DNA of 53,299 nucleotides from a virus. Positions within the stretch are counted from its first letter, which is position 1; the number at the start of each line of letters is the position of its first letter. The notes under the pieces were generated by a model, which was not told where the DNA came from, did no database searches, and worked only from the letters and a program-made list of their open reading frames with translations. The position numbers and the translations under genes were made by a program. Of the stretch, positions 2,044 to 46,823 are shown piece after piece. The DNA is taken from the IMG/VR virus record IMGVR_UViG_3300033145_000217, positions 1 through 53,299 of that record. One strand, given 5' to 3'.

Positions 2044-2637
2044 ATGAAGAAGAGAAACGTTATCTTCCTTTCTGGATTTAAGAATACGGGGAAAGACACT
2101 GTATCTGAAATGATTAATGAAATGTCATATGATAAATATGATATAATCAGTTTTGCGGATGCAGTAAAAAAAGAGTATTATGATTCCATTGGTATCAAAT
2201 ATGATAAAGGCAATGAGGATCGAACTTTCAAAGAATTACACCGAACTGGAATCATCAGTTACGGTGAATCACAAAAACATCTTTATGGGGCAAATTATTG
2301 GATTGAGAAAGCCCTCGATGATCTTCTTTTTGATAAGGAAAGTGAACGTGGTATTATAGTGCCTGATTGCAGGAGGACTGAGGAAATGTTTTGGTATTTA
2401 GACTTTTTGAATAGTAGTATGCCTAAATATCAATTCATTAGAGATAACTTTATACCGCATTTTTTTATGGTTCATAGGGAGGATGCTGATCTTGAAGATA
2501 AAGATTTTCTTACTCATATTGCTATACGTGTGGCTACTGAGCTTATGTATCTCCCTAACAGGTATATTCCGAATCATGCAACGCTTGATAAATTAAAGGT
2601 TCAAGTAGAAGAAATATATGCCTGTCGCCTAAAATAG
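2044..2637 (+). CDS. Deoxynucleoside monophosphate kinase-like P-loop protein
   Basis: The 197-residue protein opens with a hydrophobic strand and the P-loop GFKNTGKDT (residues 11-19), the GxxxxGKD(S/T) form used by phage dNMP kinases such as T4 gp1 and by related adenylate/dephospho-CoA kinase-like enzymes. A later IIVPDCRRTEE segment resembles the second conserved strand with Asp and Arg of this group. Expected role: phosphorylating dNMPs to dNDPs to supply phage DNA synthesis. It would work with the ribonucleotide reductase encoded on the opposite strand. It is the first gene after a strong promoter, suggesting early expression. The next gene starts 1 nt after its stop. Confidence 0.78.
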   Translation: MKKRNVIFLSGFKNTGKDTVSEMINEMSYDKYDIISFADAVKKEYYDSIGIKYDKGNEDRTFKELHRTGIISYGESQKHLYGANYWIEKALDDLLFDKESERGIIVPDCRRTEEMFWYLDFLNSSMPKYQFIRDNFIPHFFMVHREDADLEDKDFLTHIAIRVATELMYLPNRYIPNHATLDKLKVQVEEIYACRLK

Positions 2638-2638
2638 A

Positions 2639-3079
2639 ATGAGAGAGATATATGTCGAGAAGCAGTTTCAGAAATTTCGGAAGCTTGTTGTGGCAACAAA
2701 GTTTTCCCAAGTTTACAATGGAATAGCGGATGTGGTACTCGGAATGTCCTCTTCTATATCTCTTAGGCTATTGTTTTGGATAATGGAAAAGATGGATGAT
2801 AATAATTTTGTTGTCTTTAGAAAAGCCGAGAAACTTGAATTTATATATGAATGTTATAAAGCTGGATCAGAAAAGAAATCAATAAGTTCAATAAATAGAT
2901 CAGTAAAAGAACTTGTAGATAAAGGTCTTATGGTTTCAATAAATAATGAAGGGGAAAGGCTGGGTAAATTCTTTGTTAATCCCGGTTATTTTTGGAAGAG
3001 TAAGAATCAGCATGAGAGATCAAAAAGAATTAAAGAGTATTATGAATATTTAAAATTTAAAACAAATGAAGCAAATTGA
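2639..3079 (+). CDS. RepL-like winged-helix protein
   Basis: The product has 146 residues. The centre (about residues 80-115) has an S/T-rich recognition-helix pattern (SISSINRSVKELVDKGLM) followed by a two-strand wing ending in GKFFVNPGYFWKS. This layout and the 'vNPxYF(W/K)' ending resemble RepL-type plasmid initiators and related phage winged-helix proteins. It could be a replication initiator or a transcriptional regulator; sequence alone does not decide. Its last 14 nt overlap the start of the GroEL gene, implying translational coupling. Basic residues dominate the C-terminal third, consistent with DNA binding. Confidence 0.6.
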   Translation: MREIYVEKQFQKFRKLVVATKFSQVYNGIADVVLGMSSSISLRLLFWIMEKMDDNNFVVFRKAEKLEFIYECYKAGSEKKSISSINRSVKELVDKGLMVSINNEGERLGKFFVNPGYFWKSKNQHERSKRIKEYYEYLKFKTNEAN

Positions 3080-4622
3080 TTTTAACACAAAGGATAGTAT
3101 TATTAAGTCAGTAAAAAAGCTTGCGTTAGCGGTAGGTTCTACGCTAGGAGCGGGAGGTCGGAATGTTTTAATCCAAGTTGGAGCACAATATGCGATTACT
3201 AAGGACGGTGTAACTGTGGCTAAACAAATTGAATTTGAAGATGAAACTGAGAATGCTGTAGCCCAAATTGTAAAGGAAGCTGCGTCAAGGACAGCGAGAG
3301 ACGCCGGAGACGGAACAACCACTTCGACCGTATTGGTATATGAAATTGTAAAAAGGATTCTTGAAAATGGAGCATTTGATAAATCCAATGTAACAAAAGT
3401 TCGGGCGGGTATCGAAGAAGCTGCTAAAGACTTGGTTGAAATAATCGAGAAAAGCAAAAAAGAAGTAGAGACTGATGATGAGTTAAAGGCTATTGCAACA
3501 ATCTCAGGTAATAATGACGAGCATATTGGCGATATGATGCTTCAGGTATTTAACTCTGTAGGCAAAGAAGGCGCTATTAGGCTTGAAGAAACGTCAATGA
3601 ATGATACAATTATTGATGTGACTAAAGGATGTCAAATAGAATCTGGATATATAAATAAAAATTTCGCTAATAATACCGTAAAACAGATTACTGATTTCAA
3701 GAACCCTGCAATTTTTATTACAGATAAGAAATTTGAAACATCAATAAAAGAACTTGTACCGCCTATTGAAGTGATGATGAAAATGAAACGTCCAATGGTT
3801 ATCATCTGCGGCGGAATGGAGGGCGAACCTCTAGGTACGCTAATGATCAATAAGATGCGAGAAGGGCTTGAAATCGTAGTTATCGAAGCTCCTCACTTTG
3901 GAACGGATCGAATGGATATTCTTGACGACGTTGCAGCCGTAACCGGCGGTACTGTTATGTCAGAAGCGCGAGGATTTGATATTGCTAAGATTAAGGAAAG
4001 TGACTTAGGTACAGCAGATCGCATTATTGTTGATGCAAATGTCACTACAATGCTCGGAAGGGCTGGAACAGATGAGGCCATTGAAGAAAGAGTGGAGTCA
4101 ATTAAAGAGCAGCAAAATGAGGATCGCGAAGGCAATATGGCTTGGAGGTATGAGCAGAGGATGGCTTCACTTACGTCGGGCGTTGGAGTTATTTATGTTG
4201 GGGGTAATTCAGAAATAGAGATGAAGGATATGTATTTCAGACTTGAGGATTCACTATCAGCTACTAAAGCGGCCCTTAATCACGGTTATGTTATAGGCGG
4301 TGGGATGGCTTATTATAAGGCCGCTCAGGAGCTTGAAAAGAGGCGATTTAAGGATCAATCAAGGCGACTTGGCTATATGGCTATGGTTCATGCCGCAAAG
4401 ATGCCTACAGAGTGGATTATGCGTAATGCAGGACATCAAGGAGATATACCTATAGAGCTTGGTTTGCTTGGCTATAATGCTGTGACTTGTAAACTTTCCG
4501 ATATTGAAAAAGATGGAATTATTGATCCGTTCAAAGTTGTTGAATCGTGTATCGGTAATGCTGCATCGGTAGCTGGAATGTTAATAACCACTAATGTCAT
4601 CATTACGGATAAAAAGAAATAA
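3066..4622 (+). CDS. groEL: GroEL-type chaperonin (phage-encoded Hsp60)
   Basis: The 518-residue product aligns along the whole chaperonin fold. The equatorial ATP site has TKDGVTVA (Asp47, equivalent to E. coli Asp52), AGDGTTTST (Asp82, equivalent to Asp87) and LEDSLSATKAAL (Asp395, equivalent to the catalytic Asp398), then YVIGGGMAYY. The apical domain has GYINKNF, a VIEAPHFG segment and LTGGTV-like VTGGTV. The C-terminal AASVAGMLITT block is intact. It is about 30 residues shorter than E. coli GroEL and ends in a Lys-rich tail instead of the usual Gly-Gly-Met repeat. All ATP-site residues I can locate are conserved, so an active folding chamber is likely. The expected substrate is a phage structural or internal protein. 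It overlaps the RepL-like gene by 14 nt and is followed by a GroES-like gene. Confidence 0.95.
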   Translation: MKQIDFNTKDSIIKSVKKLALAVGSTLGAGGRNVLIQVGAQYAITKDGVTVAKQIEFEDETENAVAQIVKEAASRTARDAGDGTTTSTVLVYEIVKRILENGAFDKSNVTKVRAGIEEAAKDLVEIIEKSKKEVETDDELKAIATISGNNDEHIGDMMLQVFNSVGKEGAIRLEETSMNDTIIDVTKGCQIESGYINKNFANNTVKQITDFKNPAIFITDKKFETSIKELVPPIEVMMKMKRPMVIICGGMEGEPLGTLMINKMREGLEIVVIEAPHFGTDRMDILDDVAAVTGGTVMSEARGFDIAKIKESDLGTADRIIVDANVTTMLGRAGTDEAIEERVESIKEQQNEDREGNMAWRYEQRMASLTSGVGVIYVGGNSEIEMKDMYFRLEDSLSATKAALNHGYVIGGGMAYYKAAQELEKRRFKDQSRRLGYMAMVHAAKMPTEWIMRNAGHQGDIPIELGLLGYNAVTCKLSDIEKDGIIDPFKVVESCIGNAASVAGMLITTNVIITDKKK

Positions 4623-4644
4623 AAAAAATTAAATTTATAAAGAT

Positions 4645-4917
4645 ATGTTTGTAGCAAATGGGTTAATTAGAAAAATTTCGATAAATGATCCAAAAACTGG
4701 ATTGACTTATCTGGTTGGACAAAAAATGATGTCTGGAACGTTAACAATTACAGAAATACGACTTGATGTAGATGGAAGTATTGAGCGCGGATATGCGAAG
4801 TATGATATTCTTGTTCGAAAGAATGATTCAAATCATTCAAGGATTTGGAAATCTATAGAGAACATGCCAGTAGCGATTGAATATGAAATTGATGAAGTGA
4901 GATATGTGGAAAACTAG
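4645..4917 (+). CDS. Small unknown protein between the chaperonin genes
   Basis: The 90-residue protein is probably soluble, with alternating strands (IRKISINDPKTGLTYLVG, ITEIRLDVDGSIERGYAKYDILV) and no motif I recognise. It lies between GroEL and the GroES-like gene and overlaps the latter by 14 nt, so it is almost certainly co-translated with them. The position suggests a chaperonin-associated role, but I see no direct evidence. An A/T-rich leader (AAATTAAATTTATAAAG) precedes the start. Confidence 0.6.
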   Translation: MFVANGLIRKISINDPKTGLTYLVGQKMMSGTLTITEIRLDVDGSIERGYAKYDILVRKNDSNHSRIWKSIENMPVAIEYEIDEVRYVEN

Positions 4918-5497
4918 CAATGATAGAGTTATCGTAGAACTCAAGGGGCTGTATGACAACGAGATAAAGGTTGGCGATTTTACAATGAAAGTAGATACTA
5001 TATTCCGTAAGCTACATAACGCCGTACAGGAAGCTACAGTAGTTGCTTGCCCAGATAATAAGGAGATAGAAGTGGGGGATACGGTATTTGTTCATCACTT
5101 TGTAGTAGAAAATGAAAGAATAGTGCCAGTAAAAGATAAGCATTATCGCTGGCTTGAATATAATCAAATATACGCAAGGATGAGAGATGGTATATTAAAG
5201 GCTTTAGGATATTTTGTATTAGTAGAGCCAGTTAAATTCGATGAAGCTAAATTTAAGAATAAAACTGATTCCGGGTTAGTGTTAAGCCGTAAAACGGGAA
5301 CGGAATATGTTGACAGGGTTGGATTTGTGGCTCACGTTGGAGATGAGGCTTTTGAAGCGGGGGTGTCTGTTGGAGACAAAATATTCTTTAATAAGAACTG
5401 TGAATACGAGATTAATATCAATGGTAAGATGTATTACAGAATGGAGAAGCGTGATGTTATTGCGGTAATTGATCCAAATGTTGAATTTACAGTATAA
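4904..5497 (+). CDS. Co-chaperonin with two GroES-like domains in tandem
   Basis: At 197 residues the protein is about twice the size of GroES (~97). The second half (about residues 101-192) follows the GroES pattern closely. It has a first strand YFVLVEPV, a mobile-loop-like segment with SGLVL (residues 123-127, compare GGIVL of E. coli GroES, which binds GroEL), then VGFVAHVGD, VSVGDKIFF, and a final YYRMEKRDVIAVI resembling the GroES 'dIlAiv' strand. The first half (about residues 6-97) repeats the plan more loosely: NDRVIVELKG, ATVVACPD, IEVGDTVFVHH, and YNQIYARM as last strand. No clear IVL tripeptide is visible in the first half. Chloroplast Cpn20 is the known tandem GroES. Expected role: lid for the neighbouring GroEL. 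Confidence 0.82.
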   Translation: MWKTSNDRVIVELKGLYDNEIKVGDFTMKVDTIFRKLHNAVQEATVVACPDNKEIEVGDTVFVHHFVVENERIVPVKDKHYRWLEYNQIYARMRDGILKALGYFVLVEPVKFDEAKFKNKTDSGLVLSRKTGTEYVDRVGFVAHVGDEAFEAGVSVGDKIFFNKNCEYEININGKMYYRMEKRDVIAVIDPNVEFTV

Positions 5498-6054
5498 TGA
5501 AAGAAGAACTAAAGGAATATCTATTAATTAAATATGGAGAAGTGGAGCTTTCGGAGGAAGGCTTCACTATTTCTATTGATAAATTAATAGATTATATTAT
5601 AGAAGTTTACGTTGAAAGGGGAACGGATGCTATATTATTAAACAAAAGGAAAGAGGCTGTTATAATTGAGCTTGGCATTAAGTATGATTCAGATAAAGAT
5701 ATTCTTATGTTAAATAAGAGTAAGACCGTGAGTCGTATAATAACAGATGTCTTACATATAACAGCTAATAGAGAATTTGAATTATACATTAGCGCATTAG
5801 AGGCCACTACGATATTACTTGATATCGTTAGACGACCTATAGACGATACACTTGATGATGACAAGTGGCTTACCGCGTTAAAAGCTAAGAAGCAAGGATT
5901 TAACGATGCGAGAGAATTATTAGATAGCGCAAAGGAAATAGCCGAGCAGATGTTAGGGGCGAGAGAGGCAGACCTTGAAGAACATGTTGAAGAGGCTATA
6001 TTCAAAGAGGGTATGTCGGAGAAGTTGGCTAAGAAAATTTCTATAAAAAAATAA
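5497..6054 (+). CDS. Unknown helical protein upstream of terminase
   Basis: The 185-residue protein starts in a TAATG overlap with the co-chaperonin stop. It is predicted all-helical and strongly charged, with alternating E/K stretches and a C-terminal amphipathic helix (EAIFKEGMSEKLAKKISIKK). No catalytic motif is visible. Its position just before TerL is where small terminase subunits often sit, and its size and helical, charged make-up would suit one. No helix-turn-helix can be identified with confidence, and a promoter separates it from TerL. I leave the function open. Confidence 0.55.
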   Translation: MKEELKEYLLIKYGEVELSEEGFTISIDKLIDYIIEVYVERGTDAILLNKRKEAVIIELGIKYDSDKDILMLNKSKTVSRIITDVLHITANREFELYISALEATTILLDIVRRPIDDTLDDDKWLTALKAKKQGFNDARELLDSAKEIAEQMLGAREADLEEHVEEAIFKEGMSEKLAKKISIKK

Positions 6055-6080
6055 TTAACGGTATACTTATTGATGAAATA

Positions 6081-6100
6081 AATTATTTAGACAAATAATT
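6081..6100. other. A/T inverted repeat overlapping the terminase promoter
   Basis: AATTATTT (6081-6088) and AAATAATT (6093-6100) form perfect 8-bp arms around AGAC. The right arm runs into the -33 element of the next promoter. It lacks a GC stem and a downstream T-run, so it is a better candidate operator than terminator. Confidence 0.5.
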
Positions 6101-6129
6101 GTTATATTGGATTATTTTTTGTATCTTTG
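6098..6129 (+). promoter_or_regulatory. Bacteroidetes-type promoter for terminase and portal
   Basis: The -33-like element ATTG (6098-6101) is separated by 20 nt from a perfect -7 element TATCTTTG (6122-6129). The terminase start follows 22 nt later behind an A/T-rich leader. The -33 box is weaker than in sister promoters, and it overlaps an inverted repeat. Confidence 0.75.
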
Positions 6130-6151
6130 TATATTATACTAATATAATTAT

Positions 6152-8245
6152 ATGCAAGGCGATAATGTACATTGTGTAAAATTAGCCAGCACAACTGGAC
6201 AGATATATAGGGTAGGTGAAATTGATGTTATAATACCTAAGAAGCCAACTGCTAGAAAAATCATCAATAATCAGAAGGTTAAGAAGCATCAGAAATGGAG
6301 CCGTGATCTTTTTATGGGTGATTTCGATATTAATAAATCGGAGGAGAATTACACAGATAAGGATATAAAGTTTATTGAAGAAGACTTCGATAGAAGAATG
6401 AACGGAGTCTGGATAATGATAAACGGAGTAGCAACATGGATTACGGGGCCACATTATTATTATTTAGCTCATTGTAAGATTGACGTTGGATATCCTGATT
6501 ATAGGGATAGAGATAGGAGGTTCTTTTACCACTGGCAAGCGTGTGTGGTTGATGAGTTTTCATATGGTATGTTAATGGTTAAGCACCGTAGAGAGGGTGC
6601 AACATATAAGGGTGCGTCTTTGATTCTTGAGGTTATGACAAGATCATTTAGCTCTACCGGAGGAATAATGAGTAAGACCGGAGCTGACGCAAAAGAGTTC
6701 TTTCACAAGACTGTAAAAATGTTTAGGGGTTTACCTAAATTTTATCAACCAATTATTGCGGGTACAGATAATCCTAAGTCAATGATTGAGTTTGACAAGC
6801 CGGGCGAGCGTATTACTAAGAGGTCACAGAAGGTTAAAATATCAGAAGCTCTGGAAAGTAAGATAGAATGGAAAAATACTGCTGAGAACTCATTTGACTC
6901 ATATAAATTAAAGATAGTAGTACCGGATGAGGGTGGTAAGTGGGATGAGGTAGATGTAAGGCAAAACTGGAGAGTAATGCGGCCAACGCTTACTCAGGGG
7001 CGTAAAATTACCGGAAAAGCTTTTTTCCCATCTACTGTTAATGAGATGAGTCGTAAGGGCGGATCGAACTTCAAGGATATGTTCGATAACAGTGACCCCA
7101 ACGATAGAAACCTCAATAATCAAACAAAAACAGGGTTATACAGATACTTTACCCCTGCTTACGATGGAATGGAAGGTTTTATTGATCAGTTTGGTAAATC
7201 AGTGATTGATACACCAGATAAGCCAGTGTTAGGCATGGATGGTACAATGATTGAAATTGGGGCGAAAGCGTTTCTAGAAAATGAAAGGTTAGCCTTAGTA
7301 AATGATCCTTCTGCACTTGCGGAGTTCAAAAGACAATTTCCGTTCAACATTGATGAAGCATTCATGGTTGAGGTAAAGGATTGTTCATTTAATGTTGAGT
7401 TTCTTTATAGTCAATATGATTGGAATGCAGAACATGCACATAAGATATTAACGCCCGGAGATTTTGTTTGGACTAATGGATTTGGAAGTGAAGTTAAATT
7501 TATCAGTACAAAGTCTGGTAAATGGTTGGTAGCATGGGTTCCCGCTGTTGAGGATCAAAATAAGAAATCATGGAAAAATGGGAGGATGGAACCCGGAAAC
7601 ATGGCTTCGATTAGATCAGGCGTTGACCCTTATGACCACGATAAAACAACAGATGGTAATAAGTCTAACGCTGCTTCATATGTATTTAGGATGTATAATC
7701 CAGTTTACGAAGAAGAATCTAATATGTTTGTTTGTCAGTATATTAACAGACCTCCTACATCATATATTATGTATGAGGATATGTTAAAGCAGAGTCTGTT
7801 TTACGGGTGTCAATTACTTGCTGAGAATAATAAAATTGGTATTATTAACTGGTTTATAGAGAAAGGGTACAAGTCGTATTTAATGAAGAGACCGGAGTTT
7901 ACCAATACGAAATCCAGCGTGAGGCAAAAAACTATGGGTATTCCTACGACTGGAGATAGCGTTAGAGATTCACTTATAGGAGTTATAGAGGAATATGTAT
8001 ATTTCTACGTGGGACACAACATAGAAAAAAACACAATGGGTCTATTGTATTTCAATAGATTAATAACAGACTTATTAAGATTCGAGGCTGATAACTGGAC
8101 AAAATACGATGCTACAGTAGCATGTGGACTCACGTTGTTGGCCGTAAAGAAACATATGAAAAAGCCAATAGATTTAAACAATAAATCCCGACTTGTGCGG
8201 GAATACAAAATAAACGGAACAAAATCAAGATTAATTAGAAGATGA
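6152..8245 (+). CDS. terL: Terminase large subunit (TerL)
   Basis: The 697-residue DNA-packaging motor combines an ATPase and a nuclease. A deviant Walker A, KHRREGATY (residues 144-152), is followed by hydrophobic LKIVVPDEGG (Asp259/Glu260, Walker B plus catalytic Glu). The nuclease half starts near residue 488 with RSGVDPYDHD, the first acidic strand of the RNase H-like terminase nuclease, and acidic DSVRDSLIG and later segments could complete the metal site. The Walker A lacks the usual GK(S/T), as in other terminases where the lysine sits at the motif's start. The length is at the large end for TerL. It overlaps the portal gene by 4 nt (ATGA). Confidence 0.88.
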   Translation: MQGDNVHCVKLASTTGQIYRVGEIDVIIPKKPTARKIINNQKVKKHQKWSRDLFMGDFDINKSEENYTDKDIKFIEEDFDRRMNGVWIMINGVATWITGPHYYYLAHCKIDVGYPDYRDRDRRFFYHWQACVVDEFSYGMLMVKHRREGATYKGASLILEVMTRSFSSTGGIMSKTGADAKEFFHKTVKMFRGLPKFYQPIIAGTDNPKSMIEFDKPGERITKRSQKVKISEALESKIEWKNTAENSFDSYKLKIVVPDEGGKWDEVDVRQNWRVMRPTLTQGRKITGKAFFPSTVNEMSRKGGSNFKDMFDNSDPNDRNLNNQTKTGLYRYFTPAYDGMEGFIDQFGKSVIDTPDKPVLGMDGTMIEIGAKAFLENERLALVNDPSALAEFKRQFPFNIDEAFMVEVKDCSFNVEFLYSQYDWNAEHAHKILTPGDFVWTNGFGSEVKFISTKSGKWLVAWVPAVEDQNKKSWKNGRMEPGNMASIRSGVDPYDHDKTTDGNKSNAASYVFRMYNPVYEEESNMFVCQYINRPPTSYIMYEDMLKQSLFYGCQLLAENNKIGIINWFIEKGYKSYLMKRPEFTNTKSSVRQKTMGIPTTGDSVRDSLIGVIEEYVYFYVGHNIEKNTMGLLYFNRLITDLLRFEADNWTKYDATVACGLTLLAVKKHMKKPIDLNNKSRLVREYKINGTKSRLIRR

Positions 8246-10578: not shown

Positions 10579-11637
10579 ATGATCGTTGAGAACGAAATGA
10601 CTAAACTGCTTGGTTTTACACCAGCAGAGGAAGAAGTACCGGAAGTACCGGAAGTACCGGAAGTACCGGAAGTACCGGAAGTACCGGAAACACCGGAAAC
10701 ACCGGAAGTGCCAGAAGTACCAGAAACACCGGAAGTACCGGAAGTACCGGAAGTACCGGAAGTACCGGAAAAGGTTCTCTTGGCAGAAAACAAAGATATT
10801 AAACCTTTAGACTTCGATCAAAGTTTATCGGAAAAGAGTGGCGGAAGATTTAAAACTTACGCCGATATAGAGGCCGCAATTACAGACGCAGGAGAAAACG
10901 CTTTCGCAACCGATATGGTAAAAAAGCTAAATGAATATGTTAAAAGCGGTGGAAGAACAGATGACTTCCTAAAGACTCAGACTACTAATTTCAAAGAAAT
11001 GAGTGATCTTGAGGCAATTCGGGAACAGTCTATTTTAGAGAATGACGGATTAACCGTCGAAGAAATCAATCTGTTGATTGAAGATGATTATGGGGTAAGT
11101 AAGGATGCAACCGATAAGGTAAAAGCTCTTGCTAGTATCAAAATCAAAAGAGCTGGCGAAGCAGCCAGAAAAGAGTTAGTAAAATATCAAGACAAGTGGG
11201 CTGTTGCTCCTGAACAAACTAGAGAGGATCGTAACGCAGCTTCGCAAAAAGATGTTGAATTATGGAAAAATGAATTATCTGATGCTGTTGATGCAAATGA
11301 AGACATTTCATTTAAGATAGGAGAGGATGATTTTAAATTTGTACCTTCAACTGAAGCGAAGAATATAGTTAAGGAAGGTCATGATCTCAATAAATTTTGG
11401 GATAGGTACAAAGGAGAAGATGGAAAATATGATGTAAATAAATTTGTAAAGGAACGATATATTCTGAACAATTTTGAAGAAATCAAATCAGCCATTGTAA
11501 CTTTTGCCAAAGGACAAGGTACTCAAGATGTAGTTAACGACCTTAAGAACGTTGACCTTATCGGAAAAGACGATAAAAGTGGAGGCGAAACAGGAATTTC
11601 AGTCTTAGACCAAATTGGGAATGCATTATTCTCATAA
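10579..11637 (+). CDS. Putative scaffolding protein with N-terminal (V/T)PE repeat
   Basis: The 352-residue, highly acidic protein sits immediately before the major capsid gene, the usual place for a scaffold. Residues 20-64 are fifteen tripeptides of (V/T)PE, a stiff proline-rich acidic arm. The rest is helical and charged ([43 protein letters not shown]), without enzymatic motifs. Scaffolds are typically acidic, helical and variable, so the match is by type and position. A virion-incorporated head protein is the main alternative. It is 24 nt upstream of the capsid gene and shares its promoter. Confidence 0.65.
10636..10770 (+). repeat. 15 x 9-bp tandem repeat encoding (V/T)PE
   Basis: Nine-base units, mostly GTACCGGAA with ACACCGGAA and GTGCCAGAA variants, are repeated 15 times without interruption: six Val units, two Thr, two Val, one Thr, four Val. 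All are in frame. Unit number can change by slippage without breaking the gene. Confidence 0.97.
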
Positions 11638-22313: not shown

Positions 22314-25300
22314 ATGGCAAAAATCATAGACGATCCTCAAAAGGAAACCGGACTGCCAACTTACCCTCAAGAATTTTCAGACGAAGTAAAAGCTGGCGCT
22401 AAGAATCTAGCATCACACGGCGTTCATAAAGACCAGATTTTAGGTTGGATGACTGAGAAGTACAAGAGGTATAACAACGAGCATAAAGGTAGTGATGTGC
22501 AATACGAAGAAAAACCTGAATGGGCTGAAAGTTCTCGTATTGAAATGAAGAACACGAAAAAGAAACGTGGTCTGATTAATAGGATTGGTCGTGGGTTAAG
22601 TACTATACAAGTTATACCAACTGTAGGTGGTGTTCGTTTTTTTAATCCACTTAAAGGTGAAGATAAGGAAGATAAGGACGTTATTAATGAGGACATGGTT
22701 AATAAAACTGACGAAAGAGTTCAGGGTTTATTAAACAAAGAGGGGCGTAGAGATGGTTCAATAGATGTTAAAGAACATATAGAAGAAACAAGGAAAGTGC
22801 TAGCTACCGAATTTAATTCTTCAGGCCATAGAACTCAACGGTATAATAATGAGATTCTTATGGAAGAAGCTTATTCGGAAGTAATCGCAAAAGAATTTAG
22901 AGAAAGACTTGTAAATATTGAAAAAGAAACCGGTATAAGTAAAGCTGATATAATTCTTACTGATCCTAAAAAGATTAAGAAGATGAAGAAGCAGTATAGG
23001 GATATGGGCTATACTGGTGTAATGGTTGATCGAGCATTTGATAAGGTATTATATGAAGATAAACGTGAAACGTTTGCTGAAGAGTATGATAACTCTATTA
23101 TAAAAAATAACGATCGAAAAGTACTTGAGCAAAATCGTGAGGCAATAGGTGGTAGTCTATATAATAGCTACAAAGAAAGAGCTGAAGGTAGATTCAATCC
23201 AAATGAACTTGATAGAATGCAAGCTAACATACGCCTTGAGGAGCTACGCACACAAAAAGCTGATCCTAAAACTATAAAAGCAGTTGAGGATGAAATAGCT
23301 GTATTGGATGACTTATTAGGTGAGGACAAGACAGAAAAAGCCGCAAGACATACTGTGTCTTATGCTACTGCTGTATATATGCCCGGAGGTATGTCAACTC
23401 CATCTGCTGTTAAAGTTGGTACTGAAGAATATGAAAATGAAGTATTCTATAGATTCTATAATAAGGACGGTACTAAAATAATGCGTGGAGATGAAACTCA
23501 AGATGAAATTGAGCATGAGCAATCTGTAACTGAAATCATTAAAGCCAACAAAGAAATTAACGATTTGCCAGAAAAGCTTCTACAAGAGGGTATTAAGTCT
23601 GAAAAGATTCTACTTATTCTTGAGCAAAAACTTGCTGATATAGATAAAAAATTCTCCGATTACCAAGAAGCTAAAACTTTAACAGTATACGGTACTTCAA
23701 AACAAAAAGAGGAAGGATTAGACCCTGAAGCTCTTAAAGCTTTTGATAGAGCCAACGAATATAAAAGAACCAGAGCTTTGATCTCTGAAGAAATTCGTCA
23801 GGAAAATATCAGGTCTGAAGCTGTATCAAGGATGTATTTACTAAACCAAAACGTAGCTCTCGAAGATAGAAACCTTAAAACCCTTACAGGATTAGGCGCT
23901 GCCACTATTCGCGATATTAATATAATGCCATTTAAAAGTAATCCAAACCCATCTATAGAACAGGTGAGGGCTTATGTTAATCCTATATATGAGGAACTGG
24001 GTATTGAAATGGATTCAAAAGAATATAAAGCGACAGTTAATACTTTAACTACTGATATAATAGAAGGTGGAGCGCATCTTACTGATATAGCAATCAAAAT
24101 GATGCTGCTTGATAAAGTTGGATTTGCTGGTGTCACAAAGTTTTTTGATCTTATAGGTAAAGGCGGAGTTGTTTATAAAGCTGGCGCAGGGCTTTTCAAA
24201 ATGGGAATAGAAGAAGTTAAATTCAGAGCGGTTGGTGGTGATCCCGGAACCGGCGCAGCTTTCTATGCCGCAAACAGCTTAATCCCTAATATCAAATTTA
24301 GTAAAAAATGGCTTGATGTTATTGTAAACGGATACATGAAAAGTTCTGTAGGTATGGCCGGAGCTATTGAAGGTGCATCATTGATCGAGTCCGGTATACA
24401 CGCAGCGGCAAAGGATGATGATGTTATCCGTGAAATGACAGAAACATTTGGGCCTACTGAGGAGTGGCAAAGAAGAGTTCTTGTTAATGTTTTATCAGCT
24501 ACTCCTTTTGGTATTAAAGGAATGTACGCAAGAGGCGCTATGCCTATGGTTGATCCTGCAAAATTAAGGAAGATTGCAACCGATGTGGAAAATAACGGCA
24601 AACATGATGCATCCGCTCAACTTAAATCAATGGCAGCAACCCTTGGAGATACTAAAGTATACGAAGCCTATAAAAAAGGACAACACAAAGTTGCCAGATT
24701 GAAAGCCAATAATAGGTATGACAGGTCTGATAATATGGAGGATATTAATAAGAAATATGAGGAGCTTGTAAGTGAAGAGGGGCAAAATGACGCTTTGCAA
24801 AATCCCGGTATTTCAGCTATACTTGGAAAATATGATAATGTAAAAGTTGAATTTGACGCAAGGGAATACGCGGGAAAAATTAAAACCTTAAGATTGAACG
24901 GATTCGAAGTAACTGAAAAAACTTCCCCAGCTACTATTGATACGAAATATGCCGAAATTATACGTAAAAGTAACGATTTTAAATCAGACATTAAAGAGAG
25001 TATTCCGCCCGAATCTGAAACAGAAAATATAATAGACGTTAAGCCTAAAGCTAAAGCCATTGAATACGAGTCGGAAAATAAAGTGAGAGCTGCCAGAAAA
25101 GGTATAGAGTCCATAGTTAAAGATGTTGAATGGAAAAAGGCTATCAAGGGGCCAGCAAAACATATAGCTAAGACCATTAAAGCGTTGAAGGCTAAGATAG
25201 ATGGAGAGGCAAGTGCTGGAGTTGAAAGACCAGATGTTAAACTTAAAGTGGAGGAAACGAAGGATGGTAAATTTACAGTCACCCAACAAGAAGGAGAGAA

Positions 25301-28300
25301 AACTGAGTTTAAATCAAAGGAGAAAGCTGAACAATTTATCAAAGACTTTGAACTCCTTACGGGAGGCGAAAGAACTTTTGAAGAGCAAAAAAGAATTACA
25401 AACGAAAAACAAGGCAAAAGCGAAGAGAGGGTTGAGACGTTTGATGAAATTATAGAAAGATTCTCAGGCTTAAAGAATGGAACCAGAGAACTTGATGCTA
25501 TGGTTAATATGCTTTTTGAGGCGGAAAAAGGCGAAGCTGTTAAGATTGCTAGTAAGATAGAGGATATAGTTCATAAGGTTGAAGTTATGTCAAGACCTAA
25601 AGTTGGCACTGCTGAGGCTGTTACGAGAAGCCCAAACCAAGGGCAAGCTGCCGTATCAAGGTACGCTGACTTCAGAGGTAATCTTATTGCCTATAAGCGT
25701 GGCCAAAGAGAAGGACGTACAGACCTTACGGAAAGAGCTAATGAAGTATATGACTATATCAAAACAAGAATGTCATCGAAGTTAGTAGAGAAGATTCTCA
25801 CTGCTACTGAAGTTAAATCACTAGCAAAGCCTCTGCCTAAAAATGCAAGCACCAAGGATGTGTTAGCAAGGATTGAGAAAATGGAAAAACTATTCCAAAA
25901 GCTTGAGACAAGACAATTTAGAGCTGATATACTAAAGAAACTAAGAGGTCTTTCTCCAAAAGTTGTCGGTGCTAATTTAGTAGAAACTAAAGTTGGAGAG
26001 ATAGGCGGATCAGAGATACTTACTGCTGACATCCTATTCAAAAATAACATTGAGGGCGCTGAGAGTGTAACGGCTAAACTTAATACTCTTAGAAAAAACT
26101 TCAAAGAGGGTGAATTTGGTATAGATTTTATAGACGCTCATATTAATGCACTTAGATGGACAGGTAGCAGGGAGCTTGCTATGGAACGTCAAGCTCAACT
26201 AGAGGCTGAGTCAGTTAAAAGAGAGCTTAGTTTGTCCGAAAAAATGGAGTATGAGCTTCTTGGTCTTACTGATGGTTCAAAAATGAACAACATTGATGCT
26301 CTAAGGGCCAAGGAGACTATAGATGAAATAGAAAGATCAGGAAGACTTGTTCAAGAGAGAGTTAATGAATCCAAAAAGATAATTAATTCTATAAATATAG
26401 AGGAAGGTCTTGTATCTCTTAATGCCGATCCAAAAAAGATTAAAGAACAGGCCCAAATCAATCCTAATAAACCGGGATTTGGCGAAGCTGTAATCCAAAA
26501 AATTAAGGATGCGTCTAAATATGTAGGAACATCTCATGAAAGTTTTATTACGATGATGGAGATGTTAAGCTCTAACGATCCCAACAGAGAAGGGCCTTGG
26601 GACGGATTCTTCCATACTATATCTAAGGATTTTCACCGTTCAAGGGAGAGAGAAACTGCTGAAAAGAATAGAATGCTTAACACTATGAGAGAGGAACTTC
26701 AGGTTATAACTGGACTTAAAGGTAAGAAGTTTGATAAATGGTCTAAGCGTAATTCTAAAAAGGTTCATCCTTTCGTATATGACATTGCTAACGAGGTACA
26801 GGAGGTAGGTAATGGTATAACGGTAGACCAAGCCGCGAGATACTGGCAACTACTCCACAATAAAGCCACCTACCCGTTATGGGCTAAAAGAGGTTTTGGG
26901 GTTAAAGGTGAAAAGTTTACTGAGGTTGAAGGAAAGAGACTTATGGATGCTTTAGAGGATTTCGTTGTTACTAATAACGGAGATAAAAAAGCTCTTGAAG
27001 TTGCGAAATACCAAATGGATAAATACGCTGAACTATACAGAGATGTAAACGAGGTATATTCAAGTCAACACGGTATAGACCTTGGATATACGTTTAATTA
27101 TGTTCCAATTGTATTTGAGCAGGGTATTATTCTTGACGCTAAAGGTAGAGAGATTTCATTGGACTCAGAGAATAATATGCTTGATCGCAGCTCAGAAACT
27201 AGAGTAGCCTCTTCAGCGCCAGTATTTACTAAGGCTACTCAAAGAAGCGGAAGTATTAAGCTTGATCTTAGTAAAGGCAGTGAAGAGGTGTTCGTTGACT
27301 ATTTAAGTCATGCTATGCATTATAAACACTTCCAAGAACCACTTAGAAGAGCTGATAATGTACTTAATGACAGTAAGATAAAGAAAGCCATTCAAGGTAA
27401 GTATGGAGAAAAGGCAGGTAAATATGTAAGCGATGTGATAGCAAAATCACTTAAAGATATAGGTGCCGATGCAGCAGGAGGAACTAAGATTAAATGGCTT
27501 GCTACATTGAAAAATAAGTTCACCGTTGCAAACCTTGGGGCTAACGTGATTCTACTGCCAAAACAGTTGATGTCCGTTGATGCATATAGAGCTGGATTAC
27601 AGAGTCCAGCGGAAGAAGCATTATTCACTAAGCATTTAATGTCGTTTATGGTAGATGGTTGGGGTGCTATGGGGGAATTGAATCGTTCTGAGATGATGGT
27701 AAATCGTGCTGCTGGACATTCATATAACAAGGAATTACTTGAGATGCAGAAAAAGGCCGCTAAACTATATAAAGTTGGGAAGCTAAGACCGGGAAATCTT
27801 AATGAAGGACTTTTATTTGCTACTAAACTTGGTGATAGAACTGCTATCTTAATAGGTGGTCAAGCTTTATATAGAACTAAACAAGCAACATATAGAGCTG
27901 AAGGAATGAGTGAATCGGCGGCTAAACAAAAAGCATATGAAGACGTCGTTACATTCACTAAACTTACTCAGCAATCAGGTAATATTGAAGATTTAGGTCA
28001 TATTCAAAGGTCTGGTACTTTAGGTAAATATGCTACTCTATTCCAAAATACACCACAACAGTATTATAGAGTGGAAATAGCAGCTATTAGAAATGGCGCT
28101 AATGCTGCTAGGAGAAATAAGAACAAAGATATTACGCCTGAAGAAAGAGAGAGAAACAAAACAACTATAAGACGATCCGCAAGGGACTTTGCTATTTATC
28201 ACTTTATACTACCTATGACTTTTCGTGCGGCATCTCAAGGGTTCTATCTAGGAGGGGATGATAAAGGAAGAGATAGATTTATTAATGATGAAGGACAAAT

Positions 28301-29144
28301 AGTTACATCCGCCCTTGGCAGTTTCGCATATCCATTCATGTTAGGTGATGTAATGACAAATATCCTCAGTCTTGCGATTACGGGACACTCATTTAAAACC
28401 GAAATAGGTGGCGTTGCTCAAGATGTTATATCAGGAACGGAAGAAATGGTAAAAACGGCGATAGATATATTTCAGGCTGAAGAGTTTCAATTTGAATGGG
28501 CGAGAATTATGGATGGAACATCGGCTATAACTTGGGCTGATATTATGAATGTATTAGGAACTGGTGCCGAATACGCTGGAATACCTTGGAGATCGCCCGC
28601 TTTAATAGTTAAAGGAATATCCGATTATCGTAATTACAAGACTGAGGATATTCGTTCATGGTTTGGGTATAGCTCTGGAGTTATGGGTCATTATGATAGA
28701 AGCCCTCAGTTTAATACTATGGCTCCTTATTTTGGCTCAGAGGAAGGTATCGAGCCGTTTTTAGCTAAAATGAGATTACATACAGACCCAGATTATTATG
28801 AAGCGAATCAAGAAAAATGGAGAAAAGAATTTCGATTATATAATCATTTCGGTGGATATAATGATGATGTAAATTATCTGTATACTCTTTCTAAAACAAA
28901 TAAACACAGAGCTAAGTATCTACGTTCTATACGTGATGGTAAAATACCTTTCGGAGCGCCTATATCTATAGGGGACTTGGTTCGGGCTTCCAAGCCTCCC
29001 ATGAATCCTGCTCAATATAATGCATTTCAAACGGAGCTTCTTGAGTTTGGAGTAATAACAAAAGAAGTTATAACTGAAATGAATGCTCAAGATATTGGAT
29101 ATAAAAAAGAAATAGTTCCAGAGTTTAGAAAAACTGGTAGATAA
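22314..29144 (+). CDS. Giant (2,276-residue) internal virion polyvalent-type protein
   Basis: This is the largest gene in the window. The N-terminal ~550 residues are Lys/Glu-rich helices. A weakly hydrophobic, Gly/Ala-rich zone lies around residues 590-760 (TKFFDLIGKGGVVYKAGAGL, MAGAIEGASLIESGIHAAA). Long charged helices fill about 780-1500. The C-terminal third has a region around 1,770-1,990 with NVILLPKQLMSVDAY, then GTLGKYATLFQNTPQQYYR and IYHFILPMTFRAASQGF. That 'FQNTPxQYxR' region is typical of very large phage structural or polyvalent proteins thought to be packaged in the virion and to interact with membranes. I see no RNA polymerase DxDGD motif and no lysozyme or protease signature. 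Likely role: ejected internal protein that helps DNA cross the envelope. Enzymatic domains may be hidden. Confidence 0.68.
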   Translation: MAKIIDDPQKETGLPTYPQEFSDEVKAGAKNLASHGVHKDQILGWMTEKYKRYNNEHKGSDVQYEEKPEWAESSRIEMKNTKKKRGLINRIGRGLSTIQVIPTVGGVRFFNPLKGEDKEDKDVINEDMVNKTDERVQGLLNKEGRRDGSIDVKEHIEETRKVLATEFNSSGHRTQRYNNEILMEEAYSEVIAKEFRERLVNIEKETGISKADIILTDPKKIKKMKKQYRDMGYTGVMVDRAFDKVLYEDKRETFAEEYDNSIIKNNDRKVLEQNREAIGGSLYNSYKERAEGRFNPNELDRMQANIRLEELRTQKADPKTIKAVEDEIAVLDDLLGEDKTEKAARHTVSYATAVYMPGGMSTPSAVKVGTEEYENEVFYRFYNKDGTKIMRGDETQDEIEHEQSVTEIIKANKEINDLPEKLLQEGIKSEKILLILEQKLADIDKKFSDYQEAKTLTVYGTSKQKEEGLDPEALKAFDRANEYKRTRALISEEIRQENIRSEAVSRMYLLNQNVALEDRNLKTLTGLGAATIRDINIMPFKSNPNPSIEQVRAYVNPIYEELGIEMDSKEYKATVNTLTTDIIEGGAHLTDIAIKMMLLDKVGFAGVTKFFDLIGKGGVVYKAGAGLFKMGIEEVKFRAVGGDPGTGAAFYAANSLIPNIKFSKKWLDVIVNGYMKSSVGMAGAIEGASLIESGIHAAAKDDDVIREMTETFGPTEEWQRRVLVNVLSATPFGIKGMYARGAMPMVDPAKLRKIATDVENNGKHDASAQLKSMAATLGDTKVYEAYKKGQHKVARLKANNRYDRSDNMEDINKKYEELVSEEGQNDALQNPGISAILGKYDNVKVEFDAREYAGKIKTLRLNGFEVTEKTSPATIDTKYAEIIRKSNDFKSDIKESIPPESETENIIDVKPKAKAIEYESENKVRAARKGIESIVKDVEWKKAIKGPAKHIAKTIKALKAKIDGEASAGVERPDVKLKVEETKDGKFTVTQQEGEKTEFKSKEKAEQFIKDFELLTGGERTFEEQKRITNEKQGKSEERVETFDEIIERFSGLKNGTRELDAMVNMLFEAEKGEAVKIASKIEDIVHKVEVMSRPKVGTAEAVTRSPNQGQAAVSRYADFRGNLIAYKRGQREGRTDLTERANEVYDYIKTRMSSKLVEKILTATEVKSLAKPLPKNASTKDVLARIEKMEKLFQKLETRQFRADILKKLRGLSPKVVGANLVETKVGEIGGSEILTADILFKNNIEGAESVTAKLNTLRKNFKEGEFGIDFIDAHINALRWTGSRELAMERQAQLEAESVKRELSLSEKMEYELLGLTDGSKMNNIDALRAKETIDEIERSGRLVQERVNESKKIINSINIEEGLVSLNADPKKIKEQAQINPNKPGFGEAVIQKIKDASKYVGTSHESFITMMEMLSSNDPNREGPWDGFFHTISKDFHRSRERETAEKNRMLNTMREELQVITGLKGKKFDKWSKRNSKKVHPFVYDIANEVQEVGNGITVDQAARYWQLLHNKATYPLWAKRGFGVKGEKFTEVEGKRLMDALEDFVVTNNGDKKALEVAKYQMDKYAELYRDVNEVYSSQHGIDLGYTFNYVPIVFEQGIILDAKGREISLDSENNMLDRSSETRVASSAPVFTKATQRSGSIKLDLSKGSEEVFVDYLSHAMHYKHFQEPLRRADNVLNDSKIKKAIQGKYGEKAGKYVSDVIAKSLKDIGADAAGGTKIKWLATLKNKFTVANLGANVILLPKQLMSVDAYRAGLQSPAEEALFTKHLMSFMVDGWGAMGELNRSEMMVNRAAGHSYNKELLEMQKKAAKLYKVGKLRPGNLNEGLLFATKLGDRTAILIGGQALYRTKQATYRAEGMSESAAKQKAYEDVVTFTKLTQQSGNIEDLGHIQRSGTLGKYATLFQNTPQQYYRVEIAAIRNGANAARRNKNKDITPEERERNKTTIRRSARDFAIYHFILPMTFRAASQGFYLGGDDKGRDRFINDEGQIVTSALGSFAYPFMLGDVMTNILSLAITGHSFKTEIGGVAQDVISGTEEMVKTAIDIFQAEEFQFEWARIMDGTSAITWADIMNVLGTGAEYAGIPWRSPALIVKGISDYRNYKTEDIRSWFGYSSGVMGHYDRSPQFNTMAPYFGSEEGIEPFLAKMRLHTDPDYYEANQEKWRKEFRLYNHFGGYNDDVNYLYTLSKTNKHRAKYLRSIRDGKIPFGAPISIGDLVRASKPPMNPAQYNAFQTELLEFGVITKEVITEMNAQDIGYKKEIVPEFRKTGR

Positions 29145-34112: not shown

Positions 34113-35840
34113 CTAAGAACCGCAAGTTCCCCCTTTCCCACTCAATTCACAGATATCTATAAATTCCTCTGAAAACTCTTTGCCCTCTTTCCCGCCAACA
34201 TCAGAATACGGCACCGCTGTAATTGGTTGTCCGCCTCTCGATCCATCTGGATAACATGTAAACCCTCTTAATCTATGAGCGTATTTAAGTAGAATTTTAG
34301 CAAACATCCTAACCTTACTATCGTTATTCCATTCAGAACCCCATGATTCAAGATTTATTGTAGAACTAATAGCTTGATCTACATAATCTTGTATATCAGC
34401 TTGAAACTTGATTCTTCTCTCTGGGTCTTTAGCTAAATCTAAAGAAGTTTCAATTGAATCTGGTTCAATCCCATATTCATTGATTAGAACCTTAGAGGTT
34501 CCATCAATTACATACTGATACATCCATTTATCTTTTCCATTCAAGTATCTCCTTTTATATGCAACTGCAAATAACGGTTCAATACCAGTGGTGGTAGATG
34601 TTAAAATTCCAATACTTCCGGTCGGTGCAATAGCTCTGTAAGCTATAGGTCTCGATATCCCTATTTTATCTGCCATTTCATTAGCAGCTCTTTCACTTTC
34701 GTTTTTATAAACAGAAAGCCATTCCTTCAATTCATCAACAACCTCATATCTATATCCTCTTTTTAACAACCACTCATGAACACCCATCAATCCAAGACCT
34801 AATCTGTGATTTTTTTCTCTAACACGGTATACTTTTTCATATGGTAATTGCGCAACGAGAGTTCCGAATAGTAAAAATTGACTACCAAGCCTAACCGCCT
34901 CTTTAAACTCTTCTATCGTTTCTATTCGACTCATATTAATTGATCCAAGGTTACAAACGTCAGAATCATCTTCAGATGACACCTCCCCGCAAGCGTTTCT
35001 CAGTGTCTCTTTTTCTTTGTCAAAAAAATTGAAACTCATTCCCGGTTCTCCGCTAACCAAAGCTCTACGTACATTTTCAATATAGATTTTCGGTAAATCC
35101 ATGAATGATAGTTCCGATCCCCTTCCGAGATTCATTTTAATTGCATCTATATCTGATTGATAGACCCGTTCCAAGAAATCATTATCGTAATTAACAGATA
35201 TATTTGTCATATCTAATGCAGCCGGAAAATTAAAGTCTTTCTCTTTTAAGTAAGCGATCGTAGCTTTTTCCCCATTCTCAGTAAAGACACCATTAACTAC
35301 GATTTCATTCCAAGCTTTAGCTTTAATAAAATCGTGAATATCATTGTGTTGCCAATTAAGAGATGCGTAAATTGCAGACCTACGGCTTCCGCCTTGCATT
35401 ACATTACGCCCTATTTCATTAATCATATACATTTTAGGGATAGGCCCGGAAGCGTATCCTCCGGTTTTAGAAATAGGGCTACCAGATGGTCTGTAAACGC
35501 TATAATCAATTCCTATTCCTCCTCCGGTCATGAGGGCACTTTCAGATTTCCAAGAAAGATTCGCCCAATCTTCTCTTGTGTCAAATTCAGCCTTTAATAA
35601 AAAGCAATTATTATAGAATTTATTTGGTCTACCGGCATAATATAAATACCTACCGCCCGCAACGAATTTCATCTCCTTATGAAGCTCAATTAAAGCACTC
35701 TTATCATTATCTGGCATCCTACTGTCTACCACCTCATTTATTAAGGTTTGAGATAATTTATCCCAAGTCTCAGCATGTTCATGCATATATTTATTTATAA
35801 ATACACGCTCTCCGATTTCTGTTCTAAAAGGTTTATTCAT
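34113..35840 (-). CDS. nrdJ: Class II (B12-dependent) ribonucleotide reductase
   Basis: The 575-residue enzyme makes deoxyribonucleotides for phage replication. Key sites are GGRYLYYAG and NNCFLL (first redox Cys), the active-site NACGE (Asn-x-Cys-x-Glu, about residues 279-283) and VCNLGSIN with the partner Cys. APTGSIGILTSTTTGIEPLF and RGFTCYPDGSRGGQPI are typical of adenosylcobalamin-dependent NrdJ. No N-terminal ATP-cone is present, and no small subunit or activase is visible in the window. The C-terminal redox tail has only two Cys (CELSGKGGTCG), one near the very end. It is shorter than many class II enzymes (~700). It starts in a TAATG overlap with a small membrane protein. Confidence 0.88.
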   Translation of the reverse strand: MNKPFRTEIGERVFINKYMHEHAETWDKLSQTLINEVVDSRMPDNDKSALIELHKEMKFVAGGRYLYYAGRPNKFYNNCFLLKAEFDTREDWANLSWKSESALMTGGGIGIDYSVYRPSGSPISKTGGYASGPIPKMYMINEIGRNVMQGGSRRSAIYASLNWQHNDIHDFIKAKAWNEIVVNGVFTENGEKATIAYLKEKDFNFPAALDMTNISVNYDNDFLERVYQSDIDAIKMNLGRGSELSFMDLPKIYIENVRRALVSGEPGMSFNFFDKEKETLRNACGEVSSEDDSDVCNLGSINMSRIETIEEFKEAVRLGSQFLLFGTLVAQLPYEKVYRVREKNHRLGLGLMGVHEWLLKRGYRYEVVDELKEWLSVYKNESERAANEMADKIGISRPIAYRAIAPTGSIGILTSTTTGIEPLFAVAYKRRYLNGKDKWMYQYVIDGTSKVLINEYGIEPDSIETSLDLAKDPERRIKFQADIQDYVDQAISSTINLESWGSEWNNDSKVRMFAKILLKYAHRLRGFTCYPDGSRGGQPITAVPYSDVGGKEGKEFSEEFIDICELSGKGGTCGS

Positions 35841-45650: not shown

Positions 45651-46823
45651 TTATCCTTTTACAACTGCCAAAGGGGTCAGTTTTTTGATTATCTTTACTA
45701 AATCAGACTGATTATCCATAACGGTATCAATGTCTTTATATGCACCCGGAGCCTCATCAAGATCGCTCTCAGATACCATACCGTGAATAATTCCATCCAT
45801 CTTTTTCATCTCTATGTCAAAATCAAGCTCTTTTTTAGCTTGGTTCCTTCCCATATTTCGACCTGCTCCATGTGAACATGACATAAAACTCTCAGGATTA
45901 CCGAGTCCTTCTACGATATATGAACTTGTACCCTGCGATCCCGGTACGATACCAATCTCTCCTTTTTTGGCTGACGTAGCTCCCTTTCTGTGAACCATAA
46001 CATTCTCCCCGAAATGGTTCTCCATCCTAGCATAATTATGGGCAATGTTTATGGTATCAGTCCACTCCATGTCATCAATGAACGAATCTATTATTAACAC
46101 TATTGTTCGTAGCATAACATGCCTATTCATCTCAGCCCAATCTACACAATACTGCATCGCCTCCATGTATGCCATACCTTCATCTGTTGATAGTGGTAGG
46201 TATGCTAAGTCATGAGATGGCGGTGTGCCTGATTTCCACTGCTCATTTTTTAACTTTGCCACACCATTGAATATACCAGCAATAGTATGTCCTAAATTCC
46301 TACTACCTGAGTGAATCATAATACCAACCTTACCTTGGTCATCCTCTTGAATCTCAATAAAATGATTACCACTGCCAAGAGTCCCTATTTGTTTAGCTGA
46401 TTTTTCACCTAAACTATTACTCTTATATAACATAGACTGAATAAAATTCACATGTTGAGGTATATCAGGCATGGTAGCTATCGACTTCTCATGCGACTTG
46501 AATCCTACAGGAACTTTATGTTTTATAGCAGTTATTATATCTTTCAAATACGGTTCGAATTCCTCTCTTGTTTTGCTTGTTCCCTGATACAACATTCCAC
46601 ACCCAATATCAACGCCAACTGCATTTGGGATTACATATCCTTTTGCAGCCATAACGCCACCAATAGGCATACCATACCCTTGATGAGTGTCAGGCATAAG
46701 CGCAATATGTTTAAATGAGAATGGTAGACTAGCCAAGTTCTTAGCTTGGTCGATTGCTCCTTGATCCACGTCTTCGAGCCACATCTTTATCGGGATACGC
46801 CCGGAACTAATTACTTTTTTCAT
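45651..46823 (-). CDS. rtcB: RtcB-type RNA ligase
   Basis: The 390-residue enzyme joins RNA 2',3'-cyclic phosphate (or 3'-phosphate) ends to 5'-OH ends using GTP and Mn2+. Conserved blocks are MPDTHQGYGMPIGGV, VGVDIGCGM (Cys75, metal ligand), GSGNHFIEI, HSGSRNLGH, NIAHNYA and HRKGATSA. GSQGTSSYIV and SHGAGR (the guanylylated His) complete the set. The length equals short bacterial RtcB (~400). All landmark residues are present, so it should be active. A phage use is repair of tRNA or other RNA cut by host anticodon nucleases or toxins. Partners such as archease or tRNA genes are not visible. Its mRNA leader is A/T-rich. Confidence 0.95.
   Translation of the reverse strand: MKKVISSGRIPIKMWLEDVDQGAIDQAKNLASLPFSFKHIALMPDTHQGYGMPIGGVMAAKGYVIPNAVGVDIGCGMLYQGTSKTREEFEPYLKDIITAIKHKVPVGFKSHEKSIATMPDIPQHVNFIQSMLYKSNSLGEKSAKQIGTLGSGNHFIEIQEDDQGKVGIMIHSGSRNLGHTIAGIFNGVAKLKNEQWKSGTPPSHDLAYLPLSTDEGMAYMEAMQYCVDWAEMNRHVMLRTIVLIIDSFIDDMEWTDTINIAHNYARMENHFGENVMVHRKGATSAKKGEIGIVPGSQGTSSYIVEGLGNPESFMSCSHGAGRNMGRNQAKKELDFDIEMKKMDGIIHGMVSESDLDEAPGAYKDIDTVMDNQSDLVKIIKKLTPLAVVKG

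Follow-up and report, generated by a model that had tools for sequence, protein, structure and literature searches.

Chloroplast and apicoplast Cpn20 carries two GroES folds head to tail in about 195 residues. Here we describe a phage protein of the same layout, encoded in a 53.3-kb linear virus record (IMGVR_UViG_3300033145_000217; its 53,299 nucleotides were analysed as a whole and are called the window below). This 197-residue protein, predicted to consist of two GroES folds and referred to as tandem GroES, lies in a run of genes that leads from a phage GroEL to the large terminase subunit (TerL). The window also has phage terminase, portal and crAss-like capsid genes (Pfam, PHROG); its source is a bacteriophage related to the crAss-like phages.

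Tandem GroES poses the same question of stoichiometry on a seven-fold ring as does Cpn20. In the chloroplast lid of PDB entry 7ekq, two Cpn20 chains accompany one Cpn11 chain; the remaining subunit is presumably one CPN23 chain. The phage protein differs from Cpn20 in being encoded beside a terminase, in sharing only about 18% identity with it in the structural alignment, and in keeping a mobile loop in one half only, where loops in both halves mark Cpn20. The tandem form likely arose separately from that of plastid Cpn20, and we do not class the protein as a Cpn20 family member by descent. The original prediction had treated the fit of such a lid to the ring as a puzzle. Even-numbered lids do face a seven-fold ring, but solutions to the puzzle are known: GroEL works with concatamers of six to eight GroES domains, and Plasmodium falciparum Cpn20 substitutes for GroES in Escherichia coli (both reviewed in PMC5780408). 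An even number of domains is therefore no obstacle.

Phages offer further precedents. T4 gp31 is likewise a GroES fold encoded by a phage, its roof reduced or missing, and it sets the precedent of a phage lid for capsid protein folding (PMC6318259). It is, however, a single domain that uses the host GroEL, and its relation to the window protein is weak (phrog_931, E = 0.0017; PDB 1g31 by Foldseek, E = 0.032). The chaperonins of phages EL, OBP and AR9 are GroEL homologues, as is the GroEL of the window, and need no co-chaperonin to function (PMC9598537). Canonical bacterial GroELs give the window GroEL far better scores. A co-chaperonin gene adjoins it, which speaks against a chaperonin of the EL, OBP and AR9 type. 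The gut Crassvirales phage crAss001 has a GroES-type gene, gp15, four genes before its terminase and thus upstream of TerL as in the window; unlike the window protein, gp15 has one GroES domain, and no match to the small-partner family described below was found among its neighbours. GroES beside the terminase may hence be older than the tandem form. The crAss001 protein (7411-7821 of locus L290) has a TTGGII loop and is annotated 'putative 10kDa chaperonin'.

The closest described relatives form phrog_13932, a family from Cellulophaga and Flavobacterium phages (Pervagoviridae, Elemovirus, Pachyviridae) to which the window protein belongs over its full length, at 20-27% identity. Among 78 environmental genomes related to phi38:1, 36 were reported to have a GroEL (PMC5332604). 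Homologues of both GroEL and GroES were noted in Panino (PMC11590407), Bartlau et al. listed a chaperonin cpn10 among the Pervagoviridae core genes (PMC8776804), and phi38:1 GroEL was seen by mass spectrometry in infected cells (PMC13288928). In the open-licence literature we found no description of the tandem architecture, of a constant small partner or of their link to the terminase.

The tandem protein is predicted to contain two GroES folds

The C-terminal half of tandem GroES is readily recognised. Its residues 99-189 match Pfam Cpn10 above the cut-off (E = 1.4e-11), and the profile of the C-half family matches solved GroES chains in the PDB (E = 7e-10). Searched by itself, the N-terminal half of the window protein gives no Pfam match, Cpn10 included, and the N-half profile matches no PDB chain by sequence. 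The expectation that both halves would match GroES profiles thus held directly for the C half but not for the N half. Because these searches gave nothing, we relied on profile comparison and structure for the N half.

Both approaches point to a divergent GroES. The family phrog_13932 ("co-chaperonin GroES") matches tandem GroES full length (residues 8-189 of 197, E = 1.1e-20) and also the N half alone (E = 1.9e-6). Among relatives, N halves weakly match Cpn10 in 2 of 54 cases and the single-domain family phrog_3188 in 6 of 54. In hhalign comparisons the N-half profile scored 92.9% against the C-half profile and 82.5% against the GroES profile, with an unrelated control at 1%; the first half is thus not devoid of similarity to Cpn10. 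AlphaFold, run with 61 sequences, predicts two beta domains (mean local confidence, pLDDT, 88.5; global confidence, pTM, 0.83), and the best Foldseek match in the PDB is Chlamydomonas Cpn20 (7ekq_R), which aligns with both halves over 212 columns (E = 2.3e-8); the next-ranked matches are single GroES chains. The TM-score of 0.55 and root-mean-square deviation of 7.9 against Cpn20 indicate that the two domains are arranged differently with respect to each other, or that their arrangement is uncertain. The predicted structure thus shows two GroES folds, as first proposed, rather than one with an unrelated N-terminal domain. We conclude from profiles and model that the protein is two GroES folds in tandem, the first of them divergent. 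The idea of a tandem, Cpn20-like co-chaperonin beside a phage GroEL is supported, and the searches detected no further GroES in the window.

One loop is kept and the roof is short

An SGLVL loop had been noticed in the second half only, and no IVL-type tripeptide in the first; alignment and model bear this out. The segment KTDSGLVL is a low-confidence part of the model (64 and 61 in the residue blocks spanning 111-130), as expected of a mobile loop. At the loop position of the N half there is instead a short ordered hairpin (residues 20-29) with no loop motif, by DSSP and pLDDT. Across the family, a recognisable loop is retained in the C half of 28 of 54 members. These include the window and two other loci, L006 and L026, the three in which a GroEL gene is adjacent; all three keep an SG-hydrophobic loop there. 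Several relatives, the Baltivirus proteins among them, have an SGLEL or SGVEL loop in the N half instead; different phages have thus lost the loop from different halves. The strict SG-type pattern is missing from both halves in 19 of 54 members, and many failures of the pattern are G-to-D changes that retain the hydrophobic residues. The roof segment is short in both halves (C half, 8 residues; N half, 5), whereas E. coli GroES has 15 residues there and bacterial proteins mostly have 10 or 15; T4 gp31 likewise has no roof loops (PMC6318259).

Tandem GroES belongs to a block before the terminase

How widespread is this arrangement? A scan with an alignment of terminase proteins gave 80 loci; counting the window and L006 with them, 65 have at least 1.5 kb of sequence before the terminase. 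Tandem GroES lies no more than 3.5 kb upstream of the large terminase gene in 58 of these 65. A tandem GroES had been regarded as a rarity; it belongs to a known family and is common in this phage group. A GroEL gene next to the block was seen in three loci only: the window, L006 and L026 (in L026 as a fragment at the contig end). In the window GroEL, the small gene, tandem GroES and terminase are contiguous, and their order is identical in L006. Together with a fourth locus, L025, these three loci form one clade in the TerL tree (support 100). Apart from L006, GroEL is absent from the longer contigs (23 of 24), an absence that is not proof, as contigs are fragments.

The same block occurs in isolated phages. 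In phi38:1, elemo and Panino, tandem GroES likewise stands before TerL and is itself preceded by the same small gene. These phages and Manatee have a tandem protein before the terminase and, elsewhere in the genome, a GroEL with a single-domain GroES; two complete Baltivirus genomes encode both a tandem and a single-domain GroES and lack GroEL, an absence that points to reliance on the GroEL of the host. Both arrangements differ from that of the window. The complete genomes of Cellulophaga phages phi18:3 and phi19:3 (L023 and L024) hold two GroES-type genes, one tandem and one single, and no GroEL. Tandem GroES and the small gene are a regular feature next to the DNA-packaging gene across a large group of uncultured phages. 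The majority of them appear to borrow the host GroEL, as the longer contigs without a GroEL gene suggest.

A small partner gene precedes tandem GroES

The small gene encodes a 90-residue protein of a family (A7) with the conserved motifs IRKI...YxVGQ...LWK...IEYD. It lies upstream of tandem GroES in all 57 loci with a full-length tandem gene and enough upstream sequence, at a spacing of 30 nucleotides or less, or overlapping, in 45 of them. The original prediction had tied this gene to the GroEL pair. Nearly all of the 57 loci have no GroEL nearby, and since the gene stands before tandem GroES with or without GroEL, it belongs to the GroES-terminase block and not to GroEL.

The family has no Pfam match and no consistent PHROG match. 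Its confident model (pLDDT 86) has no significant fold match in the PDB (best E = 0.32); weak similarity was seen to a single set of phage proteins, all uncharacterised (best E = 1.6e-4). A third GroES was considered and rejected, as no GroES similarity was seen (hhalign, 1%). The protein may be a third chaperonin component.

The phage GroEL is a divergent group I chaperonin

The GroEL of the window matches Pfam Cpn60_TCP1 over residues 20-517 (E = 1.2e-46), with equatorial, intermediate and apical domains all present, as well as phrog_5725 (E = 2e-121) and NCBIfam PRK00013 (445 bits, cut-off 397). Against the equivalog model TIGR02348 it scores 446 bits, below the cut-off of 582, and we therefore regard it as a divergent member of group I. 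All 15 ATP-site positions checked are identical to those of E. coli, D52, D87 and D398 included; the earlier observation that the ATP-site Asp residues are all present is thus correct, as is the observation that the protein has no GGM tail. In the set compared, that tail is present in 73 of 79 bacterial GroELs but in just 29 of 80 viral ones. Hydrophobic residues prevail in the apical groove (Y199Y, F204F, L234V, L237I, L259L, V263M and V264I; the exception is given below). Inter-ring positions conserved in bacteria are changed in both alignments (R452E, E461Q, S463D). With the altered positions of two salt bridges described below, these replacements could reflect a single ring or altered allostery, although the oligomer cannot be inferred from such positions. 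Residues K105, A108 and A109, on which the two alignments disagree, were not used.

The nearest bacterial GroELs are only about 42% identical and come from Flavobacteriaceae. With the window protein on a long branch of the tree, we rejected recent capture from a host. In trees, the window GroEL groups with that of L006. One tree suggests that this pair and the GroELs of phi38:1, elemo, Panino and Manatee were acquired independently; we do not claim this, as a single clade was not rejected under a mixture model (approximately unbiased test, p = 0.30). Six viral GroELs from unrelated phage contexts, with no GroES detected nearby (L213, L242, L268, L271, L272 and L275), group with the window protein in one tree (support 99), a grouping not confirmed under the mixture model. 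Phage GroEL had also been called rare. Scans of genomes and viral contigs with the single GroEL protein as query found no relatives, but an alignment query did, with matches in at least 593 stretches of viral contigs; GroEL matches occur in 286 of 50,697 phage records. The claim of rarity is not borne out.

A probable lid for a phage or host GroEL

We think it probable that tandem GroES acts as a lid of the Cpn20 kind, on the phage's own GroEL in the window and on the host GroEL in other phages, for the folding of head or packaging proteins, and that lid and partner came first and GroEL later. Three or four tandem chains, with one working loop each, would close the seven-fold ring of the phage GroEL encoded nearby; or three tandem chains and one host GroES would make up seven domains. 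Where the phage also encodes a single-domain GroES, three tandem chains and one single-domain chain could do the same, as in the chloroplast lid. The closed chamber would fold late proteins of the phage. The position of the block makes head or packaging proteins, encoded in the same gene block, the most plausible substrates, with the T4 capsid protein as precedent. The original prediction named the capsid or the 2,276-residue protein as possible clients of the chamber. The tandem lid and its 90-residue partner would have formed the core of the terminase block first, working with the host GroEL, and a phage GroEL would have joined or moved into the block later, in the ancestor of the window, L006 and L026.

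Several observations weigh against this explanation. With the loop gone from the N half of the window protein, a ring would carry just three or four loops. In phi38:1, elemo, Panino and Manatee the loop of the tandem protein is degenerate and a separate single-domain GroES accompanies GroEL; in these phages the tandem protein may not be the lid. The window GroEL itself has an altered apical position, Y203N, and in both alignments is without salt-bridge residues of the E. coli type (D83R, K327A, R197S). Since the contig is linear and may be incomplete, the genome could encode a separate single-domain GroES beyond its ends.

Could these observations be better explained in another way? One suggestion is that the tandem protein has been repurposed for head assembly or DNA packaging, for example as a terminase or portal accessory, and is a chaperonin lid no longer. 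Its linkage to the terminase and not to GroEL (58 of 65 loci; 23 of 24 longer contigs without GroEL), the degenerate loops in the four phages just named and the 19 family members with no strict loop pattern would all fit. However, the C-half loop is kept in 28 members, among them all three with an adjacent GroEL, several others carry SGLEL or SGVEL in the N half, and many losses of the pattern are G-to-D changes with the hydrophobic residues kept. Moreover, the virion proteins of phi18:3 were annotated from mass spectrometry, whereas its tandem GroES was annotated solely from sequence similarity. We consider repurposing unlikely.

Less probable again, in our judgement, is that the two genes are separate adaptations, with a phage GroEL that works without a co-chaperonin and a tandem GroES that redirects the host GroEL. 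The chaperonins of EL, OBP and AR9 need no co-chaperonin (PMC9598537), the replaced inter-ring residues might suit a single ring, and most relatives have tandem GroES with no phage GroEL detected. Against this stand the adjacency of the genes in one run, their same order in L006, the presence of GroEL beside the lid in three loci, and the apical GroES-contact positions, most of which remain hydrophobic. That the first half is an unrelated domain, with GroES in the second half only, was already disfavoured and strikes us as very improbable. The N half of the window protein alone does have no Pfam match and its profile finds no PDB chain, but phrog_13932 covers both halves, the N-half profile matches GroES and the C half, relatives have a GroES-type loop in the N half, and the predicted structure matches Cpn20 across both.

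The gene run and its surroundings

The genes concerned are part of an operon-like run on the + strand (2044-8245), in which genes follow one another without large gaps (Table 1). The boundaries first predicted for GroEL, the 90-residue gene and tandem GroES are correct. The starts at 3066, 4904 and 5497 each lie inside the 3' end of the previous gene, which fits coupled translation; the 146-residue gene overlaps the GroEL start by 14 nucleotides, as does the 90-residue gene the tandem GroES start.

Table 1. Features of the gene run in the window, in order of position
Feature	Coordinates	Strand	Basis
Deoxynucleoside monophosphate kinase-like protein, 197 residues	2044..2637	+	PHROG 139, E = 6.4e-21; Pfam P-mevalo_kinase and DNMK
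146-residue protein, possibly replication-initiator-like	2639..3079	+	Weak Pfam RepL, E = 0.036
Phage GroEL (group I chaperonin), 518 residues	3066..4622	+	Pfam, PHROG and NCBIfam profiles; residues; trees
90-residue conserved partner of tandem GroES (family A7)	4645..4917	+	Alignment; model pLDDT 86; 57/57 loci
Tandem-domain co-chaperonin (two predicted GroES folds), 197 residues	4904..5497	+	Pfam, PHROG, AlphaFold, Foldseek, hhalign
N-terminal GroES-like half, residues 1-95, without IVL-type mobile loop	4904..5188	+	DSSP, pLDDT, profiles
C-terminal GroES half, residues 96-197, with mobile loop	5189..5494	+	Pfam Cpn10; C-half profile against PDB GroES, E = 7e-10
Mobile-loop core of C half, residues 120-127, KTDSGLVL	5261..5284	+	Alignment with E. 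coli GroES
185-residue terminase-linked protein, candidate small terminase subunit	5497..6054	+	Similarity to open reading frames before TerL
Terminase large subunit, 697 residues, anchor of the conserved block	6152..8245	+	phrog_6681, E = 3.6e-125; tree

The run opens with the kinase-like gene, and L006 has a related kinase gene at the same position (open reading frame 1261-1953) as well as a 168-residue open reading frame in the place of the 146-residue gene. The 185-residue protein between tandem GroES and the terminase is related to open reading frames of about 95-105 residues in the same place before TerL at other loci, and is weakly similar to the N-terminal extension of the 876-879-residue terminases of elemo, phi38:1 and Panino. 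We regard it as a candidate for the small subunit of the terminase, in some phages fused to the large subunit.

Elsewhere in the window, a 352-residue protein directly before the capsid gene (10579-11637) contains consecutive PEV/PET repeats close to the N terminus, and a 2,276-residue protein (22314-29144) has no PHROG match. Genes for a ribonucleotide reductase, a DNA primase/helicase and an RtcB-like RNA ligase lie on the - strand (34113-35840, 36546-38363 and 45651-46823). No tRNAs were found in the window. Promoter and terminator scans of the window were not used, as promoter matches were near chance level.

Implications

A bolder extension, which we hold doubtful, is that a dedicated folding device for late proteins is part of the core of a large group of environmental phages related to crAss, made up of the tandem lid, an obligate small partner from the previously undescribed A7 family and a borrowed or phage GroEL, with a mixed seven-domain ring wherever a single-domain GroES is present. 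Such a mixed ring, if true, would be a convergent counterpart of the chloroplast Cpn11/20/23 lid. In the literature searched, tandem GroES lids are described from plastids and apicoplasts, and with the phage family one could test independently how lids with an even number of domains function on rings of seven. With three genes spanning about 2.4 kb, the system is compact enough for expression, and phages that have their own GroEL can naturally be compared with those that do not. The near-constant place of the lid and its small gene before the terminase suggests that, in these phages, a folding step is not left to the host GroES alone.

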